Below are positions 34,728 to 48,781 of a stretch of DNA of 64,000 nt, piece after piece; position 1 is the stretch's first letter; each line of letters begins with the position of its first letter. The notes beneath the pieces are model-generated. The model searched no databases. It was given only the letters and a program-made list of their open reading frames with translations, and was not told the DNA's origin. Source of the stretch: Adineta ricciae (taxonomy: Eukaryota > Rotifera > Eurotatoria > Adinetida > Adinetidae); the NCBI GenBank assembly GCA_905250025.1, contig CAJNOJ010000014.1, positions 799,629-863,628 on the forward strand. The letters are read 5' to 3'. A program made the position numbers and the translations under genes.

Positions 34728-36034
34728 ATGTCGACAAGCAAGAAAATGCTAAAATATTTTTTTCTATTGTTCGTTTGGAACTGCTATGTAAGTCACAATT
34801 ACGTTGTACGAGTATCTCGAAATTGTTTTGCATTATGGCAGGTTGCTGCTGAACCTTCATCATGGTCCATATCAATACCACTTCCAGATGGAACTCGACG
34901 TGTTATTCATATACCTTCTTCACCAGTCGATTCTCAAGCTGAAACTGTATGTAGACCGTTTATAACTGACTTTCAATTAACCTAGGGAATCTGTAGAAAT
35001 CAGAGTGCAGAAATTGCTTCCATTTTCGTACGGTTGATGACGGGCGTCGAATGTTAATCGAGCCTTGTGGCGGACATAATTGTGTTGCAATGATCAATAG
35101 TACTACTTCAACGAAATTTGAACCAACAAAGGAGTACAATTTCAGTCAATGTGGAATGCCAAGTAATACGAAATATTCAATAGTAAACAAGGCTTTACAA
35201 ATGAAAGTCAGCACGGGTGTGAAAAATACGCTGCGTCCGGCTGAATATCCTTGGCTGGTAAGCGATCCTGTTCTTGAATTATTCCTTTGAACAAACCGAT
35301 TCTCATAGGTACGCATTGAAAGTCGTTCAAATATTTTTTCACGAACAGTCACTCTTTGTGGTGGAACATTAATTCATCCACAGTGGATCATTACAGCCGC
35401 ACATTGCATGTTTGACAGTAAAGTTGATCGGCTGTATTCAACCAGTGGTATTAGTTTATACATGGGCCATTACAACCGTGTAAGTACAAGTCAAAATGAG
35501 TACATCGCACGACCGAATCTGTATATAATTCATCCGGAGTTTCGCATAACTCGGTCCAAACCAGCACCGGTTCATGATCTAGCACTGATTAAATTAGAAA
35601 AACCAGTCCCATTGTCACAATCAATTGGCATTGCTTGTTTACCCAATCGAGCAGACAAATTAGCCGATGGAGCATTGGCCTTTACGGCTGGCTGGGGCCA
35701 TGCAACACCAGGCTCGTCGGCAGTTAATGAGCCTCGAAAAGCTCGACTTAAAATTTCCTCCAAAGCATGTCGTCAATTGATGATCGATCGCCGTCTGCAC
35801 GTATGTGGCCGAAGTGACCGTGGCAATAATATTTGCAGTGGAGACTCGGGTACTGGTCTATGGATTCGCGCAGGTTCTAAGTCGAATGATCACCAAACGG
35901 ACTGGCGATGGTACATATTCGGTGTAGCCAGCTTTGGCCTTGATGAATGTTCTCAACGTGTCAATCATGATAATGCATTCGCATCAGTGTCGACGGATAT
36001 TGATTGGATACATGACGTGATAAATAAATATTAG
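34728..36034 (+). CDS. Secreted chymotrypsin-fold serine protease with atypical activation site
   Basis: The start MSTSKKMLKYFFLLFVWNCY is interrupted by a 54-bp intron (34788-34841) and continues VAAEPSS, giving a signal peptide. A second intron is 34947-34996. A Cys-rich N-terminal part (ECRNCFHF, EPCGGHNC, FSQCG) precedes the S1 domain. The catalytic triad is intact: His in TAAHC, Asp in HDLALIKL, Ser in GDSGTG. Odd points: the usual GDSGGP is GDSGTG; the residue six before the catalytic Ser, which sets S1 specificity and is Asp in trypsins, is Asn; and there is no R/K-IVGG activation cleavage motif before EYPWLVRIES, where GVKNTLRPA stands instead. It may be an active protease of unusual specificity or a regulatory one. 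The length of the S1 part, about 260 residues, is normal. Confidence 0.85.
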
Positions 36035-36557: not shown

Positions 36558-38009
36558 ATGTTAAGTGAAGCACAACGTTCAACACGGTCACCAACAGAAT
36601 CAGTTCAGACCGATTCTGTGCGTACGGGCCCGACGACCGGTGTAAAAGGGCGATTATCTCCTCAATCATCTATCACGGAAGAAGATTCTAGTAGAAGTAT
36701 CTAGAAAATACCAATACTTACACAAATCTAACATGTAAATTTCTTTCCTTCAGTTCCACCACCACCGCCACTTCCTCCTCCTCCTCCGCCAGTTATTTCT
36801 CGTGCGCCAGTCAAATCATCCTCAGCATCAGCATCGTCGTCGTCGTCGTCATCATCATCAAAATCAGCGAGTACTGTACGGACTAAATCGAGTGAAGAGT
36901 CCAGACCAATCGTTCGTGGGGTAGGCACGACAAAACCTATTAGCGGTGTAACTATTAACAAATCGACACCACGACGCATGAGTTCTGATGAGAAAAGTAA
37001 ACCTAATCGGCAAGTGTCCGGTGTAGGTACAAAGCCATCACAATCGAAGCACAAGTCAACAGGAGCATTCACTCGTATTAGTGCGCGTGATTTCATCAAC
37101 GATAAATCAAATGGGAGACTCGTATCGTATCTCAAAAGTGGGAAAAGCAATCAAAGCGTTTTTGAAAAAGTCGATACGCATGATGGCCATACGACTTATT
37201 TGGGTAGTGGAAACTATTGTGACCTAGAAGATTGTATACGGGATTGTTTATCGAAAAATCGATGTCACACAGATCTGAAATATTACAGCTCAAGTCATGA
37301 TTATTCAAGTAAACCCTTAACACGTGCTTCGGTACTTGAAGACTACAGTTACGACGGAATAATAGAACCCAAGCATCATTCATCCTATTCGAGTTATAGT
37401 CATCTTCATGATCGTGATTATTACAGTCATCTTACTGATTATCATTGTAATAGCAGAAAACATGCAGGAGAACTTTCACTTGACGAAATCCGTAAAGTCA
37501 ACGATCATCTGGCTAAATACGGTATACCAGTTTTTTCTCATCATGACAATCCACATCATTCGCATCATTCCCATCACAAACCACATTCTGTAAATGAAAT
37601 CGTATCTGCATGTCGACTTATTCTCAACGAACCGAGACTTGCTGGATTACATTCCGATGGATCACAGGCTGTACATCACGTCTGGGATGCAATACATAAC
37701 CATCCTATGCCACAAAATAATCAGGGCTATGCCTCACCAGCAGTTCGTGGTGTCGCATCGCATTTATTCCCTTCTGGTCAACCGCCATATGATCCTGTAC
37801 ACGGTGTTTCATCTCATCTGTTTGGTCAACCGCAAGCACCTCCAAATAATCCATCACATTTCTTTGCACCTGCACAACCACTACCGTCATACAATCCTGG
37901 TCCAAGTGTTCAAACGTATCCTTATGGATCACCACCACCACCACCACCACAGCAGCAGCAGCAGAGCTCAGGCCAAAGTGTTCTATCGCGTTTACTTGGA
38001 TCTCATTGA
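36558..38009 (+). CDS. Uncharacterised Pro/Ser/His-rich protein
   Basis: I do not recognise this family. Exon 1 (36558-about 36693, MLSEAQRSTRSPTES) is joined by a short intron to a long second exon; the junction creates a proline run (PPPPPLPPPPPPV). It is followed by an alternating Ala/Ser and poly-Ser stretch encoded by TCG/TCA repeats (about 36833-36862). The middle has a more ordinary, possibly folded block: STGAFTRISARDFINDKSN, GRLVSYLKSGKSNQSVFEKV and a Cys cluster YCDLEDCIRDCLSKNRC. Then comes a His/Tyr/Ser-rich segment (SHHDNPHHSHHSHH), a block with NEIVSACRLILNEPRLAGLH, and repeated VRGVASHLFPSGQP / VHGVSSHLFGQPQ units, a poly-Pro/poly-Gln stretch and the end SVLSRLLGSH. There is no signal peptide or membrane segment. 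The His clusters could bind metal, but this is only a guess. Confidence 0.75.
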
Positions 38010-42686: not shown

Positions 42687-43295
42687 TCACCAGACAGTTT
42701 CGATAATCTTATAAATTCGTCGAAGACCAATTGACGATAGTAATGATCCTAGCAAGCATATCACTACCAATAGATAGTACCAATTTCGATGTAGGCCATA
42801 CAATGACATACAAGCCATAAGGAAAAGTATCAAAACAATACCTAAACACCATCTCTGTATTCGTCGACGTAATAATCGATTCCGAATTGTCCGTCCAGAG
42901 AATGGACGGGATGTTTTTTGGCCGAGTAAAGTTAAAATCATTTCTCGACATGCTAATGTGTCATAATTATAATCCATACGTTCGAGAACATAATCAAGAG
43001 CGTGACAGACTTTGAGAAAACGTTCGTCATCTTTACTTTCATGTTCTTGGCGTTTTTCGTATTGAGTTTTTAAATCGTCAAGTTCACGTTCAATTTCTTC
43101 GAATCGACGATTAACTTCTTCTTCAATCGACGCAATTCTCGTCGAGATTTCATCGGACGGTGAATTGGGAAACTCACTGAAATCGTCTCTACACAAAAAA
43201 CTGGATTCAAATATATCGAATTCATACCTCTGTTCTTCAGTCTCATCGTCGATATTAGTAGTGGTTGTTCGTTTTGTTGTTTGTTTTCTTGGCAT
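42687..43295 (-). CDS. Small coiled-coil protein with C-terminal membrane hairpin
   Basis: Unrecognised protein of 202 residues (189 if a candidate intron is removed). It has a basic, Thr-rich N-terminus (MPRKQTTKRTTTTN), then a charged helical, probably coiled-coil stretch (ASIEEEVNRRFEEIERELDD), a middle block with CREMILTLLGQKTSRPF, an Arg-rich patch (NRLLRRRIQRW) and two hydrophobic helices, CLGIVLILFLMACMSLYGL and WYYLLVVICLLGSLLSSIGL, separated by HRN. This suggests a tail-anchored hairpin protein of an internal membrane with a cytosolic coiled coil. Bases 43227-43189 form a 39-bp GT-AG segment that is open and a multiple of three, so both spliced and unspliced products would be in frame. 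The start at 43295 is the only suitable ATG. Confidence 0.7.
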   Translation of the reverse strand: MPRKQTTKRTTTTNIDDETEEQRYEFDIFESSFLCRDDFSEFPNSPSDEISTRIASIEEEVNRRFEEIERELDDLKTQYEKRQEHESKDDERFLKVCHALDYVLERMDYNYDTLACREMILTLLGQKTSRPFSGRTIRNRLLRRRIQRWCLGIVLILFLMACMSLYGLHRNWYYLLVVICLLGSLLSSIGLRRIYKIIETVW

Positions 43296-43846
43296 GTTTT
43301 GTCAACTTAGTGTCGATGAAAAAAACAAAATACACGTGAGTCAGCCAATACATACTTCACCGCGCTGTTGTTCCTGTCCCTTTCTTTCTCTCGTTCTCTC
43401 TCACTTCTCGTTGGCTGGAGAAGCAGCGACGGACGAAATATATCTATAGTTCATTTTCGTGTTCAGAACAAGCGGACGAGGACAGTCAAGTCACTTATTG
43501 AAGTAGAATATGAATCAAGTTCAATGGAATAGAGGTTTTTCTCAAGTATTTAAATAAATATCACTTTTCACAAGAAAATTTTGATCATTTGCATATTGAA
43601 TCGTAGAGATATTTATCAAACACTCTATCGTACTACTGTTCCTCTAATCATCTCGTTTTTCTCGACTATGATGTGAATTTACAAGCATGCACTGATGTTT
43701 TTGTCTCTTGCATTACGTCTATTTTCTTCTCGTTCTGTTTGCTAAGTACTATTTATGTCGTCAGCTTCTTCTCGAATACTGATTATCGTTTCATTTCATA
43801 CTGGTTGACTTTGAAAATACGCACACACACAACTAGTTATACAGTT
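43296..43846. other. Divergent intergenic region
   Basis: These 551 bp separate the starts of the membrane-hairpin protein (-) and the aldo-keto reductase (+). An open frame runs into the reductase start from 43673, but its residues are hydrophobic filler upstream of a good signal peptide, so I treat it as UTR. No other feature is seen. Confidence 0.55.
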
Positions 43847-44992
43847 ATGTGTTTTCAATATCTTCTCTTTGCTGGATTATTACTTATTTCCAAGCTGCAT
43901 GCTACTTCTGAAATCAAATCTATTAAACAACAGCCAACTGTTCGGTTAATGAATGCCGTTCACGGTGAAGTACTCATGCCGGTAGTTGGTCTGGGCACTG
44001 GAGGTTACGGTTCGGCGAATGGATCAGGTGGAGAATATTGGGGACCTGAACAAGGTCATAACGCTACTGTAGCATGGTTAAATATGGGTGGTCGACGTAT
44101 TGATAGTTCAGACGATTATGCTTCGCGCGATGGTGTTGGTACTGGTTGGGTAGCAAGTGGCATACCTCGTTTAGAGGTATTCATTACATCCAAAGTAGAT
44201 CCTGCAGGGTATGAACAAACACTTTCGAAATTTACCGATATACTCAAGTCTTTACAAACTACTTATGTTGATCTTCTACTTATTCATTGGCCTGGTGCTC
44301 AGCCGGGTAAATCTGATAAACCAATACCGCCTTGTAAACAAGGAAAGGCTACTTGGACAGATTGTCGCATCGAAACATGGCGAGCATTAGAAACTATATT
44401 CAAACTACAACAAGTAAGGTTTTCTATTTATTTATGTTAACGCTTATCGGTTTTTTATCCACTAGGTTCGTGCTATTGGTGTTAGTAATTATGAAGTAAA
44501 TCATTTGTTAGAAATTTTCAACTTGAACTCTACTCTTCCAAGTGTTAATCAAGTAAACTTCCCTTCGAATATTTTTTTTTGTGCTGATAAAAATTTCTTT
44601 CGATTCAGGTTGAATTCCATCCTTACTGGCACGAAGATGAACTTGTTGATTTTTGTCAGAAACATAACATTACATTCAACAGTTACTCGCCCGTCGGCTG
44701 TCCTGATCATGCATTAACACTTGGTCCAACTTGGAATCCTATACCTGATCTACGTAAACATCCACGTGTAGTTACAATCGCAGCTAAACATGGCAAAACC
44801 TCAGCTCAAGTAGTACTTCGCTGGCACTGGCAACAAGGTATTGTTGTTAATCCACGTACTCGCGATCCAACTCATATGATGGAAAATATGTCGATATTCG
44901 ATTTTGAACTCGACCAAGAAGATATGATGACTCTTGCTTATTTAAATCATCCGATGAGCAAAGTATGCGGCGATCCAAGATTAATTCCATAG
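43847..44992 (+). CDS. Aldo-keto reductase with N-terminal signal peptide
   Basis: NAD(P)H-dependent carbonyl reductase of the AKR superfamily. Exons 43847-44413, 44466-44552 and 44609-44992; introns of 52 and 56 bp. The catalytic tetrad is complete: Asp and Tyr in RRIDSSDDYASRD (spacing of five as in AKRs), Lys in FITSKV and His in LLIHWPG. Other hallmarks are VGLGTGGYG, VRAIGVSNYEVNHL, VNQVEFHPYWHEDEL, FNSYSPVG, and the cofactor-binding end SAQVVLRWHWQQGIVVNPRT. Unlike most AKRs, it begins with a probable signal peptide (MCFQYLLFAGLLLISKLHA), and the ATG at 43847 places this right at the start, so the enzyme may be secreted or ER-luminal. A long insert (PGAQPGKSDKPIPPCKQGKATWTDC) follows the catalytic His. 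It ends 34 bp from the converging fusion gene at 45027. Substrate cannot be read. Confidence 0.88.
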
Positions 44993-45026
44993 GTAAAGAC
45001 ACTGATAATGTCATACTCACTATTTT

Positions 45027-46415
45027 TTAATCCGCTTTATTATTACAATCGAGTATAATTTGATTAACTACTTTGAAAATGCTGATTTTTCCATCCTTTT
45101 CTGTCCAGTCAGTTGGATGCGAGTTGATTGCAGCTGGTTTTATTTTAATCATATTGACGTACTCTTTTAATCTGGAAAAGATATTTATATCTAGTCCTCG
45201 ATGGATTAAAGAGGCGATAACAGGATAAAATGCACAATCAGCTAATGTAAATTGATCACAAGCAATGAACGTATTTTTTGTCAAGTACATTTCCCAAAAT
45301 GCCAGTTCTTCATTGATCTTTTCCAGTATCTCCAGAATAGAATTTTTATGTGATGGTTGTTCATGTTCAAGTGTTTTGAATACAATGGCTTCCAGTGATT
45401 CATATATATCGACTAGATTTTGAGATTCTTGTACGCGTTGCATTACTTGGACATGTTTGGCTTTTTCTATAGGCAGAAGCGATCGAGTAGAAGGGTAGTA
45501 TTCTTCGAGATAATATAAAATAGCGAGTGATTCAGCAATGATTGTACCATCTTTATCAACAAATGTTGGAGTTAAGCCACGGGGATTGATAGCAAGAAAT
45601 TCCGCCGATTTCGTTTGCTTTGGTTTGGACATGACCTGCAGTGGTTTGCCCTCAAAATCAATGTCTTTTTCATAAAGTGCCATCAGGACTCTCCAACTAG
45701 GTATAGATCCATTTACAAAATACAAGACTGGCTTCAAAATAGCACTGTCAGTAGTAATCACTTGTTGATCATTGAATTGATTCGACACGATCGTTGTTGC
45801 ATACCAGCGTCGTATCTTTTTCAATGCCGTTCGATGCGAAACTTCATTGCGATATCCAAGGCAATCAATCCAAACGAAAACCTTGTACCCATGAAAGAAA
45901 GCATCGATTGTCGTTGCTTGAACACAAACATTGGTTAGTAGACCACAAATATGCACTTCATTCACGTTCTTCAAAATTTCAGCAAGATTAGTATTTGTAA
46001 ATGCTGAATAATACGTTTTTGTCACGATAAAATCTTCATCAGACTTGATAAGAGAGATAACTTCAGACGGAAAACATTCTCCATCTGTTCCAGGTATACA
46101 TAGCGGAAATGACCGATGAGTACCCGAAAGAAAAGTATCGTTCATTGGAATATTTTCATACTGTTTACCTTCTGGACGAACGAGAGATTTGGATTCGGTT
46201 TGATCATTTTTATAATTAGCTTTGATCCAAACAACAATGCCATTCGAATCACGAAAGCGCGGTAAAACATTGTTTAAATGAGAAACAATATGATCTATTT
46301 TGACATATTTATCTTTGAACGGTCCATTCGGAGATACAAAATCTTGTTGAAGATCGACTATTAACAATGCACGTCTCGTTTGATTTTCCTCCATTGACAT
46401 GTATACAAAAATCAA
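45027..46415 (-). CDS. Isochorismatase-like hydrolase fused to glutathione S-transferase, intronless
   Basis: A single open frame of 462 residues with two enzyme domains. Residues about 14-215 form an isochorismatase/nicotinamidase-type cysteine hydrolase: LLIVDLQQDF (Asp21), VTKTYYSAF (Lys133) and CGLLTNVCVQATTIDAF (Cys164) give the complete Asp-Lys-Cys triad. Residues about 228-450 form a GST: thioredoxin fold LYFVNGSIPSWRVLMALYEK with a plausible catalytic Ser240, NPRGLTPTFVDKDG, the glutathione-binding AESLAILYYLEEYYP, then an all-helical half with FIACDQFTLADCAFYPVIAS. The substrate is unknown; a coupled role in detoxifying small amides or conjugates is conceivable. It has no intron, while almost every neighbour has many, which suggests recent origin by retroposition or horizontal transfer. 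The start could also be Met6 (46400). Confidence 0.9.
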   Translation of the reverse strand: MIFVYMSMEENQTRRALLIVDLQQDFVSPNGPFKDKYVKIDHIVSHLNNVLPRFRDSNGIVVWIKANYKNDQTESKSLVRPEGKQYENIPMNDTFLSGTHRSFPLCIPGTDGECFPSEVISLIKSDEDFIVTKTYYSAFTNTNLAEILKNVNEVHICGLLTNVCVQATTIDAFFHGYKVFVWIDCLGYRNEVSHRTALKKIRRWYATTIVSNQFNDQQVITTDSAILKPVLYFVNGSIPSWRVLMALYEKDIDFEGKPLQVMSKPKQTKSAEFLAINPRGLTPTFVDKDGTIIAESLAILYYLEEYYPSTRSLLPIEKAKHVQVMQRVQESQNLVDIYESLEAIVFKTLEHEQPSHKNSILEILEKINEELAFWEMYLTKNTFIACDQFTLADCAFYPVIASLIHRGLDINIFSRLKEYVNMIKIKPAAINSHPTDWTEKDGKISIFKVVNQIILDCNNKAD

Positions 46416-46747: not shown

Positions 46748-48781
46748 TTAATCTTCTTCATCTTCATTTTCGACTTCTTCTTCGCCTTCCTCTTCTTCCT
46801 CAGGTTTTTCAGCAGCCAAACGTGCCTTTTCTTCATCTTCAGCTGTTGGATCATCAGCTTCTGTAATTTCTGGTCCATCATTGTATTCACTCGCCGGTAT
46901 GGGAGGTAATTCCGGTCGATAATCGCTCGTTGAATATTTGTGTCCATAACCGATATAAATATTTTCCCAGATGGTTCCACGAGCAAACGCATATGCACCT
47001 GGCCAGAGATTTGATCGAACAAACGCACAGGCATACTGTGGAATCAGATTCGACGAGATTTTCGCTGTCCAAGCTTTCGTGTGATGGATTTCAGCATCGG
47101 CACCGATGGGTGTGAGGAGTGGTGGGCCTTGCTCTGGCTGAATTCGATCTTCGGCTTTACCATCTTCCTCTTCGTTCTCTTCTTCTTGCTCCTCTTCTTC
47201 AGCATCTTCCTTTGGATTCCACCATTTTGTTCGGCCTTGAGGAAGAATGTGTAAAACATGATGAACCTAAACAAGAAATTCGATGATAAATTAGACAAGA
47301 GACGAATATGTGAATCATCTCATACCCATCCGTTTAGCTCCTCATCGATCAATTCTGATAATGGTGCACCTGTAAAGTCTTCGTTATCTTCATAGTTTTG
47401 TCGACCACCTTCCTCCTCCTCTTCCTCTTCCTAAATGAAATGAAGCAGCTGAAAACCAAATTCATCAATGTTTGCTTTTCATTACTTCGGAGAATTTAAA
47501 CCGTCCATTGGGTGATACTTGCGTTGTTGCACTGATTCGGGCAATTTGTGCACGTAAATAATGCTTTTCTGTTCCTGGATAGGCAGGAAACGACTTGATT
47601 TCTCGATTCAAATCTCCAGTGAAGAAAACTTTGATCTGTCGAGCTAAAGAAATTTGTGCTGGTGTCACAGTCGGTAATCGAACCCATGGTGCTCCAGCTA
47701 AACAATAAAAAACCGAAAATTCTCACGCCTGAACTCATCTTTTCTATAATACATACGACGATTGCAGACATAATAGGTGTACTTGTTCACGCCTGTTCCA
47801 CGTTCTTCTTTTGGTACACTTGGTGGTGGCTTGTAAGCAGATTTTGGCAAAGGATCTTCTTCTCCTTCACCTTCTTCATCTTCATCCGCATCTTTCTCAT
47901 CATTTTCATTGTTCTCTTCGTTTTCTTCCTCTTCTTCGACCTCTTCGTCAGCATTCTGTTCGACTTCAGCGACATAATAATTCTTCTCTGTTCCCAGTAT
48001 TTTACCCCAAAAACGAAGTTTTTCAAATTGACTTTTATCTACTAATTGTTTCAATGCCAGCCATATTCTAAAAAGAAACATCAGTTGTAGGTCGAAGCTC
48101 ACTGATACCGTCTATTATTTCCTTACTGATAAGTCTCATCACGACCAAGACCAATACCAGCTTGTTCAAAATAATACGCTTGTTCGAGAATATGTGGCAA
48201 TGGCGATTGTAAAGCATCTTCATCAAGATCATCAGTATTTTCACCTTTCTACACATTTTCATTGATCATAACATATTATTTTTCAATAAAATCAAACAAA
48301 ATTACTTCAAAGAGTGGCTTCTGTTCTTCGTTCAAGATTTGTTCCGAATCTGCAGGTGGCTGATCTTCGACGTGTGTCTCATCTTCAGATCGAACCGATT
48401 TGCTCACATCTTCGAATATGATAGCACTATCGCCTAGAAAAAATTCAATCATTTCTTTTTCATATTGTTGATTTTCCTCTTCTTACGTGGCTGTTCGGTT
48501 AACAATCGTGAAACACATTTCACTAAATGAGTGTATCTAATTAAAATCGATTAGAGCAAATATTTGAATAAACGATTGAAAATATCTATTTACAGATTAA
48601 CACCCTTCTTGTTTTGTGATGATAAAATATACGTTTTGGCATCATTGAAACGCTTCTCCATCTCTCCAATATCGGGAGTACCAATATGTTGTCTTTGATC
48701 TAGACAAATGAAATTATCACCACTTTAGGAAAACCTTCTCGACTAACCTCCATGCTGATTTTGATATTGAACTGTACTCAT
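46748..48781 (-). CDS. RSPH4A: Radial spoke head protein 4/6 homologue
   Basis: Structural component of the radial spoke head, which relays signals between the central pair and dynein arms in motile cilia. It starts [18 protein letters not shown] (ATG 48781-48779) and continues [19 protein letters not shown] and, after an acidic stretch, [57 protein letters not shown] long Glu/Asp tract precedes KYTYYVCNR, then [79 protein letters not shown] and a Glu-rich end (stop 46748). All are known radial spoke family signatures. About eight to nine short introns leave roughly 510 residues, shorter than the human proteins of about 715, mainly through a shorter N-terminus. A strong X-box-like site lies 66 bp upstream. 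RSPH6A is the alternative name; invertebrates usually have one gene for both. Confidence 0.92.

Follow-up and report, generated by a model that had tools for sequence, protein, structure and literature searches.

The closest described counterparts of the gene considered here belong to two known enzyme families. On the hydrolase side stands nicotinamidase PncA (1ilw, 6a8l), which shares the fold and the type of catalytic triad and carries, after the second strand, a D-x-H pair that we take to be the nicotinamidase metal site. The RutB-type ureidoacrylate amidohydrolase (TIGR03614; 8bkd) and biuret hydrolase likewise share the fold and the Asp-Lys-Cys type of triad. On the transferase side stands the rho-class glutathione S-transferase (GST) of 3qav/3qaw, presumably from the bivalve Laternula elliptica, whose chain of 243 residues has the Ser, Pro and Glu-Ser of a predicted glutathione site. 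The name rho has also been given to a cyanobacterial GST, as stated in the available portion of PMC4309839. In the rotifer Adineta ricciae, within a window of 64,000 nucleotides (the whole stretch analysed; contig CAJNOJ010000014.1 of assembly GCA_905250025.1), an isochorismatase-like hydrolase and a GST occupy one gene, with the GST domain coming after the hydrolase, an unusual pairing of two known families.

The gene lies on the minus strand, where 45027-46415 forms a single open frame of 462 codons plus stop when counted from a TTG; the plus strand of the same interval holds many stop codons. The first in-frame ATG, at 46400, yields a protein of 457 aa, the longest ATG-started ORF in the window (the runner-up has 343 aa). 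An earlier, sequence-only reading of this DNA had numbered residues from the TTG, so that the ATG is residue 6 there; we count from the ATG unless that numbering is named. The features of the locus are as follows.

43673..44992, plus strand: convergent neighbour, an aldo/keto reductase gene (PF00248, Pfam) with short introns seen by eye and an uncertain start
45027..46400, minus strand: complete coding sequence of the fusion from ATG to TAA, 457 aa, readable without introns (ORF reading, Pfam)
45030..45734, minus strand: rho-like GST half (GST_N and GST_C), residues 223-457 (Pfam, PDB match, tree)
45519..45713, minus strand: predicted glutathione site, Ser232 (in NGSIPS), Pro278 (in NPRGLTPTF) and Glu290-Ser291 (in AES), with identical residues at these positions in 3qav
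45735..45785, minus strand: linker between the domains, about 17 residues, 206-222 (Pfam, PDB match, alignment)
45786..46400, minus strand: isochorismatase-like (PF00857) cysteine hydrolase half, residues 1-205 (Pfam, PDB and fold matches, alignment)
45924..45926, minus strand: predicted nucleophile Cys159 (C164 in the earlier numbering), in GLLTNVCVQ, invariant in 28/28 aligned prokaryotic homologues
46017..46019, minus strand: predicted catalytic Lys128 (K133 in the earlier numbering), in VTKTYYSAF, invariant in 28/28
46212..46220, minus strand: Ala61-Asn-Tyr63, at the position of the D-x-H pair found in 17/28 homologues (alignment)
46353..46355, minus strand: predicted catalytic Asp16 (D21 in the earlier numbering), in VDLQQDF, invariant in 28/28
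46748..47242, minus strand: upstream neighbour, the final portion of a radial-spokehead-like gene (PF04712, Pfam)

The hydrolase-GST fusion is a genuine two-domain frame that keeps the motif sets of both enzymes: PF00857, GST_N and GST_C follow one another in one frame, all over their Pfam cut-offs. The sequence-only reading was right on the coordinates of its uninterrupted 462-codon frame, which is open on the minus strand and kept in a second genomic copy, on its triad D21, K133 and C164 (D16, K128 and C159 from the ATG), and on a GST with an AES motif, which begins at 294 in its numbering.

It is extremely improbable that two adjacent genes have been read as one through an artefact of assembly or annotation, given that both copies hold one stop-free frame, linker included, despite 73 differing bases among the 1371 compared (22, 12 and 39 by codon position). 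The second full-length copy lies on contig C198 of the 130-Mb, 1033-contig genome; the 4.4 kb surrounding the two copies align at 95% and are collinear, neighbours included. Since this collinear copy keeps the whole fusion, an assembly join is unlikely, and the occurrence of the fusion at two loci flanked by the same genes indicates that the event was not very recent. The two proteins are 92% identical, differing at 35 of 457 residues. For the whole fusion, dN is 0.035 and dS 0.135 (NG86, one pair of copies), giving a dN/dS of about 0.26; taken separately, the hydrolase half has about 0.27 and the GST half about 0.23. Purifying selection has thus acted between the two copies, whether they are allelic or an older pair. 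In the gap between the convergent genes, at about 45013-45014, the second copy has 24 extra bases that are absent from the window copy.

The sequence-only reading had described the gene as intronless among intron-cut neighbours and suggested that it was perhaps gained horizontally or by retroposition. The description stands, in that the frame needs no intron and short introns were seen by eye in two flanking genes, both in the window and around the second copy. Its weight is lessened by the rest of the genome, where 17 of the 34 PF00857 matches (matches rather than genes, some being fragments or paired copies) cover 149 or more of the 175 positions in a single stop-free frame, the two fusion copies included. 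With half of the matches lying in one frame, the lack of introns is not special here and is weak evidence for either route. The possibility that the hydrolase half contains an intron kept in frame was discounted, since homologues align with the residues that follow its additional stretch and both copies keep the frame. The coding sequence of the fusion contains 77 GT..AG pairs of suitable length, so that such pairs alone mean nothing.

The hydrolase half matches PF00857 at 2.2e-30 over residues 16-209 of the earlier numbering, with 106.5 bits (cut-off 27). In sequence, its best PDB match is PncA 1ilw, at 53.9 bits, and PhzD 1nf9, an isochorismatase proper, reaches only 32 bits. In the structure model of this half, confidence is high near the triad (block means of 91, 92 and 89) and poor at residues 66-77 and 85-97; among the model's 50 best Foldseek matches PncA comes first, with 6a8l the best, and N-carbamoylsarcosine amidase and the biuret and triuret hydrolases are also present. 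Unlike PncA, the fusion has A61-N-Y63 in place of the D-x-H pair. In the 28 aligned prokaryotic homologues, a selection from 80 loci, A-x-Y or S-x-Y replaces the pair in 4 (L071, L080, L085 and L089), and in the 3 of these that were scanned (L071, L080 and L085) the best profile score is that of RutB, under its cut-off. These RutB-like homologues resemble the fusion in having no D-x-H pair. Against the NCBIfam equivalogs, the hydrolase half gives matches only far below the cut-offs (RutB TIGR03614, 37.4 bits against 377.95; biuret amidohydrolase, 39.7 bits against 370), which sets it outside the RutB equivalog and indicates that it is not the same enzyme as either. Hydrolases of Thermomicrobium (L064), a Thermoplasmatota archaeon (L070) and a WOR-3 bacterium (L071) are among the closest proteins found, at 26-32% identity, and differ from the fusion in being stand-alone, single-domain proteins. 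Given the retained triad, the absence of the D-x-H pair and the fold matches to amidohydrolases, the hydrolase half would fit a metal-independent amidohydrolase.

The GST half is recognised by three GST_N and three GST_C Pfam models over cut-off, which together span residues 231-426 in the earlier numbering (GST_N_2, 55.6 bits; GST_N_3, 55 bits; GST_C, 33.2 bits). In a PDB search, rho-class 3qav scored 122.9 bits and the next structure 58.4; blastp aligned the half with 3qav at 35.6% identity over 222 columns (126 bits), the best bacterial GST compared, L149, reaching 83.6 bits. Conversely, when the genome was searched with 3qav, the two fusion copies scored 122.6 and 117.6 bits and the next match 33.1. 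The pair is the only rho-like GST found in the genome, bearing in mind that introns split some genes and a divided rho gene could therefore score low.

Separate phylogenies of the two halves, which the sequence-only reading had proposed, were informative for the GST half. The tree has 19 rows, of which one is rho, two are delta, one is zeta and others are bacterial; the omega, theta, sigma and mu classes are not represented. In it, 3qav and the GST halves fall together with support of 99/97, a group that recurs in 98% of 200 bootstrap trees, and the GST half is not nested among the bacterial rows sampled. Of the 23 loci put forward for this tree, 4 had no match by blast, and a further 6 (L039, L040, L046, L047, L055 and L059) were excluded for scoring under 30 bits or spanning fewer than 120 columns. 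For rho, delta and zeta, the rows consist of the segments shown in HMMER alignments, with 3ay8 left out. To the extent that a tree with a single rho row can tell, the GST half groups with rho, apart from the delta, zeta and bacterial rows.

We consider it probable that the gene encodes a rotifer two-domain protein joining a metal-independent cysteine amidohydrolase to an animal rho-class GST, likely for detoxification or salvage. In such a protein, Cys159 would attack a small amide, ureide or carbamate with the assistance of Asp16 and Lys128, and hydrolysis would run via a thioester intermediate; the rho-class half would use glutathione on an electrophile or peroxide. The role would likely be intracellular, and the tether would hold both activities together in a single particle, whether they act as successive steps or in parallel. 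Two-step detoxification, as suggested by the sequence-only reading, may be one form of this. It is unlikely, in our estimation, that only the hydrolase is catalytic and that the GST half serves to dimerise or anchor the protein while doing little catalysis itself. Some GST-fold proteins are structural, and divergence between the copies is slightly faster in the GST half (dN of 0.035) than in the hydrolase half (0.030; NG86). However, Ser232, Pro278 and Glu290-Ser291, whose roles in the glutathione site we assume from GSTs in general, are the same as in 3qav, and the half has its own low dN/dS of about 0.23. The structure model of this half is unreliable, mostly under pLDDT 50.

As for the origin of the bifunctional protein preferred here, a native rho GST gene would most likely have been joined to a hydrolase gene. 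The provenance of the latter is less readily placed. The hydrolase alignment retrieved at least 424 confirmed relatives from genome contigs, the best 80 of which match at 24-38% identity, and in the prokaryotic, viral and plasmid collections the nearest relatives are prokaryotic, at 84 bits against 63 for paralogues of the same genome. A 102-row tree combined 80 prokaryotic loci (the best 80 of at least 424), 2 plasmid genes, 18 own-genome paralogues and the 2 fusion copies; own-genome loci that lacked a match by blast, or whose segments were shorter than 140 aa, did not enter it. There, the branch leading to the fusion pair measures 1.91 changes per column, and its join has a support of 16/60. 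The hydrolase half thus appears as a long, unplaced branch among prokaryotic relatives.

These results do not favour the horizontal gain or the retroposition put forward in the sequence-only reading: the GST half is closest to the animal rho class, no close prokaryotic relative of the hydrolase was found in the collections searched, and the GC content of the halves (0.363 and 0.357) matches that of the window (0.368). The gene resembles an ordinary animal gene kept by selection more than one recently imported. Arrival of the hydrolase half, or of the whole fused gene, from a microbe with later adaptation would be compatible with the two-domain protein described above, and we regard it as rather doubtful. 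In its favour are the many transferred genes that bdelloid rotifers hold, according to the available portions of PMC4632278, PMC5916493 and PMC3499245, the prokaryotic sequences that outscore the paralogues, and the fact that another hydrolase pair of the same genome groups with Pseudomonadota. It is opposed by the length and poor joining of the fusion's hydrolase branch, the animal-like GST half, the matching GC content and the failure to find a prokaryotic fusion in the genomes, plasmids and hydrolase loci sampled. The other hydrolase pair consists of the nearby genes L009 and L010 (G000:C276:30894-31457, 35416-35979, minus), which group with Pseudomonadota proteins at 100/99; L009 scores 276 bits with the biuret amidohydrolase model, under the cut-off of 370. 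Horizontal transfer would be easier to argue for this pair than for the fusion.

The same two-domain order, a search for which had been suggested, was not found in 941 sampled prokaryote genomes of three phyla (292 at E <= 1e-19; 398 and 251 at E <= 1e-17). These scans, which scored few candidates per genome in samples of larger groups and had no positive control in a prokaryote, returned one match, a lone GST at 38% over 224-400. No match spanning both halves was found in eight genomes at E <= 0.001, 0 of 234 matching plasmid records cover 80% of the fusion query, and none of the 80 prokaryotic hydrolase loci (the best 80 of at least 424) holds a relative of the GST half. With the fused protein as a single query, no relative was confirmed among 4 pattern matches in viral contigs or 17 in genome contigs; with the GST alignment, none was confirmed among 84 in viral contigs. 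The hydrolase alignment has weak relatives in viral contigs, at 21-31% (best 80 of 86).

All of these collections are prokaryotic, viral or plasmid, and a fusion common to many rotifers or other animals would lie outside them. Such a wide distribution, which would equally suit the two-domain protein that we favour, is a real possibility, if somewhat short of probable. The two loci with the same neighbours, by which the event is not very recent, speak for it; against it, no description of a hydrolase-GST fusion was found in the literature searched, among the matches listed and as far as their titles and the starts of their abstracts go. The opposite and narrower proposal, of a rotifer-specific bifunctional enzyme in which the only rho GST and a metal-free ureide or carbamate hydrolase act sequentially on one substrate class, as a detoxification step with no counterpart in other animals, seems to us quite unlikely. 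Fusions hint at which activities work together, and here a cysteine amidohydrolase is tied to a rho-like GST. Confined to rotifers, this would be a chemistry particular to one lineage, in animals noted for tolerating stress; widespread among animals, it would be ordinary annotation. The wider value of the fusion therefore depends on its spread among eukaryotes.

Elsewhere in the window, no tRNA or Rfam family was found, and two ORFs have no Pfam match at 0.001: the 343-aa ATG ORF, second longest in the window, at 36978-38009 on the plus strand, and a 202-aa ORF at 42687-43295 on the minus strand, which by eye is charged and has a hydrophobic C-terminal stretch. The rotifer spliced leader is 23 bases long, as given in the available portion of PMC3795323. 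In the genome, it has 0 exact matches; at 1 or 2 mismatches there are 44, compared with 0 for the reversed sequence used as a control, and all 44 carry T for the first G. Such a pattern agrees with a rotifer, probably a bdelloid, as the source. These matches (L244-L246 and 41 further places) often occur as divergent pairs about 130 bases apart.
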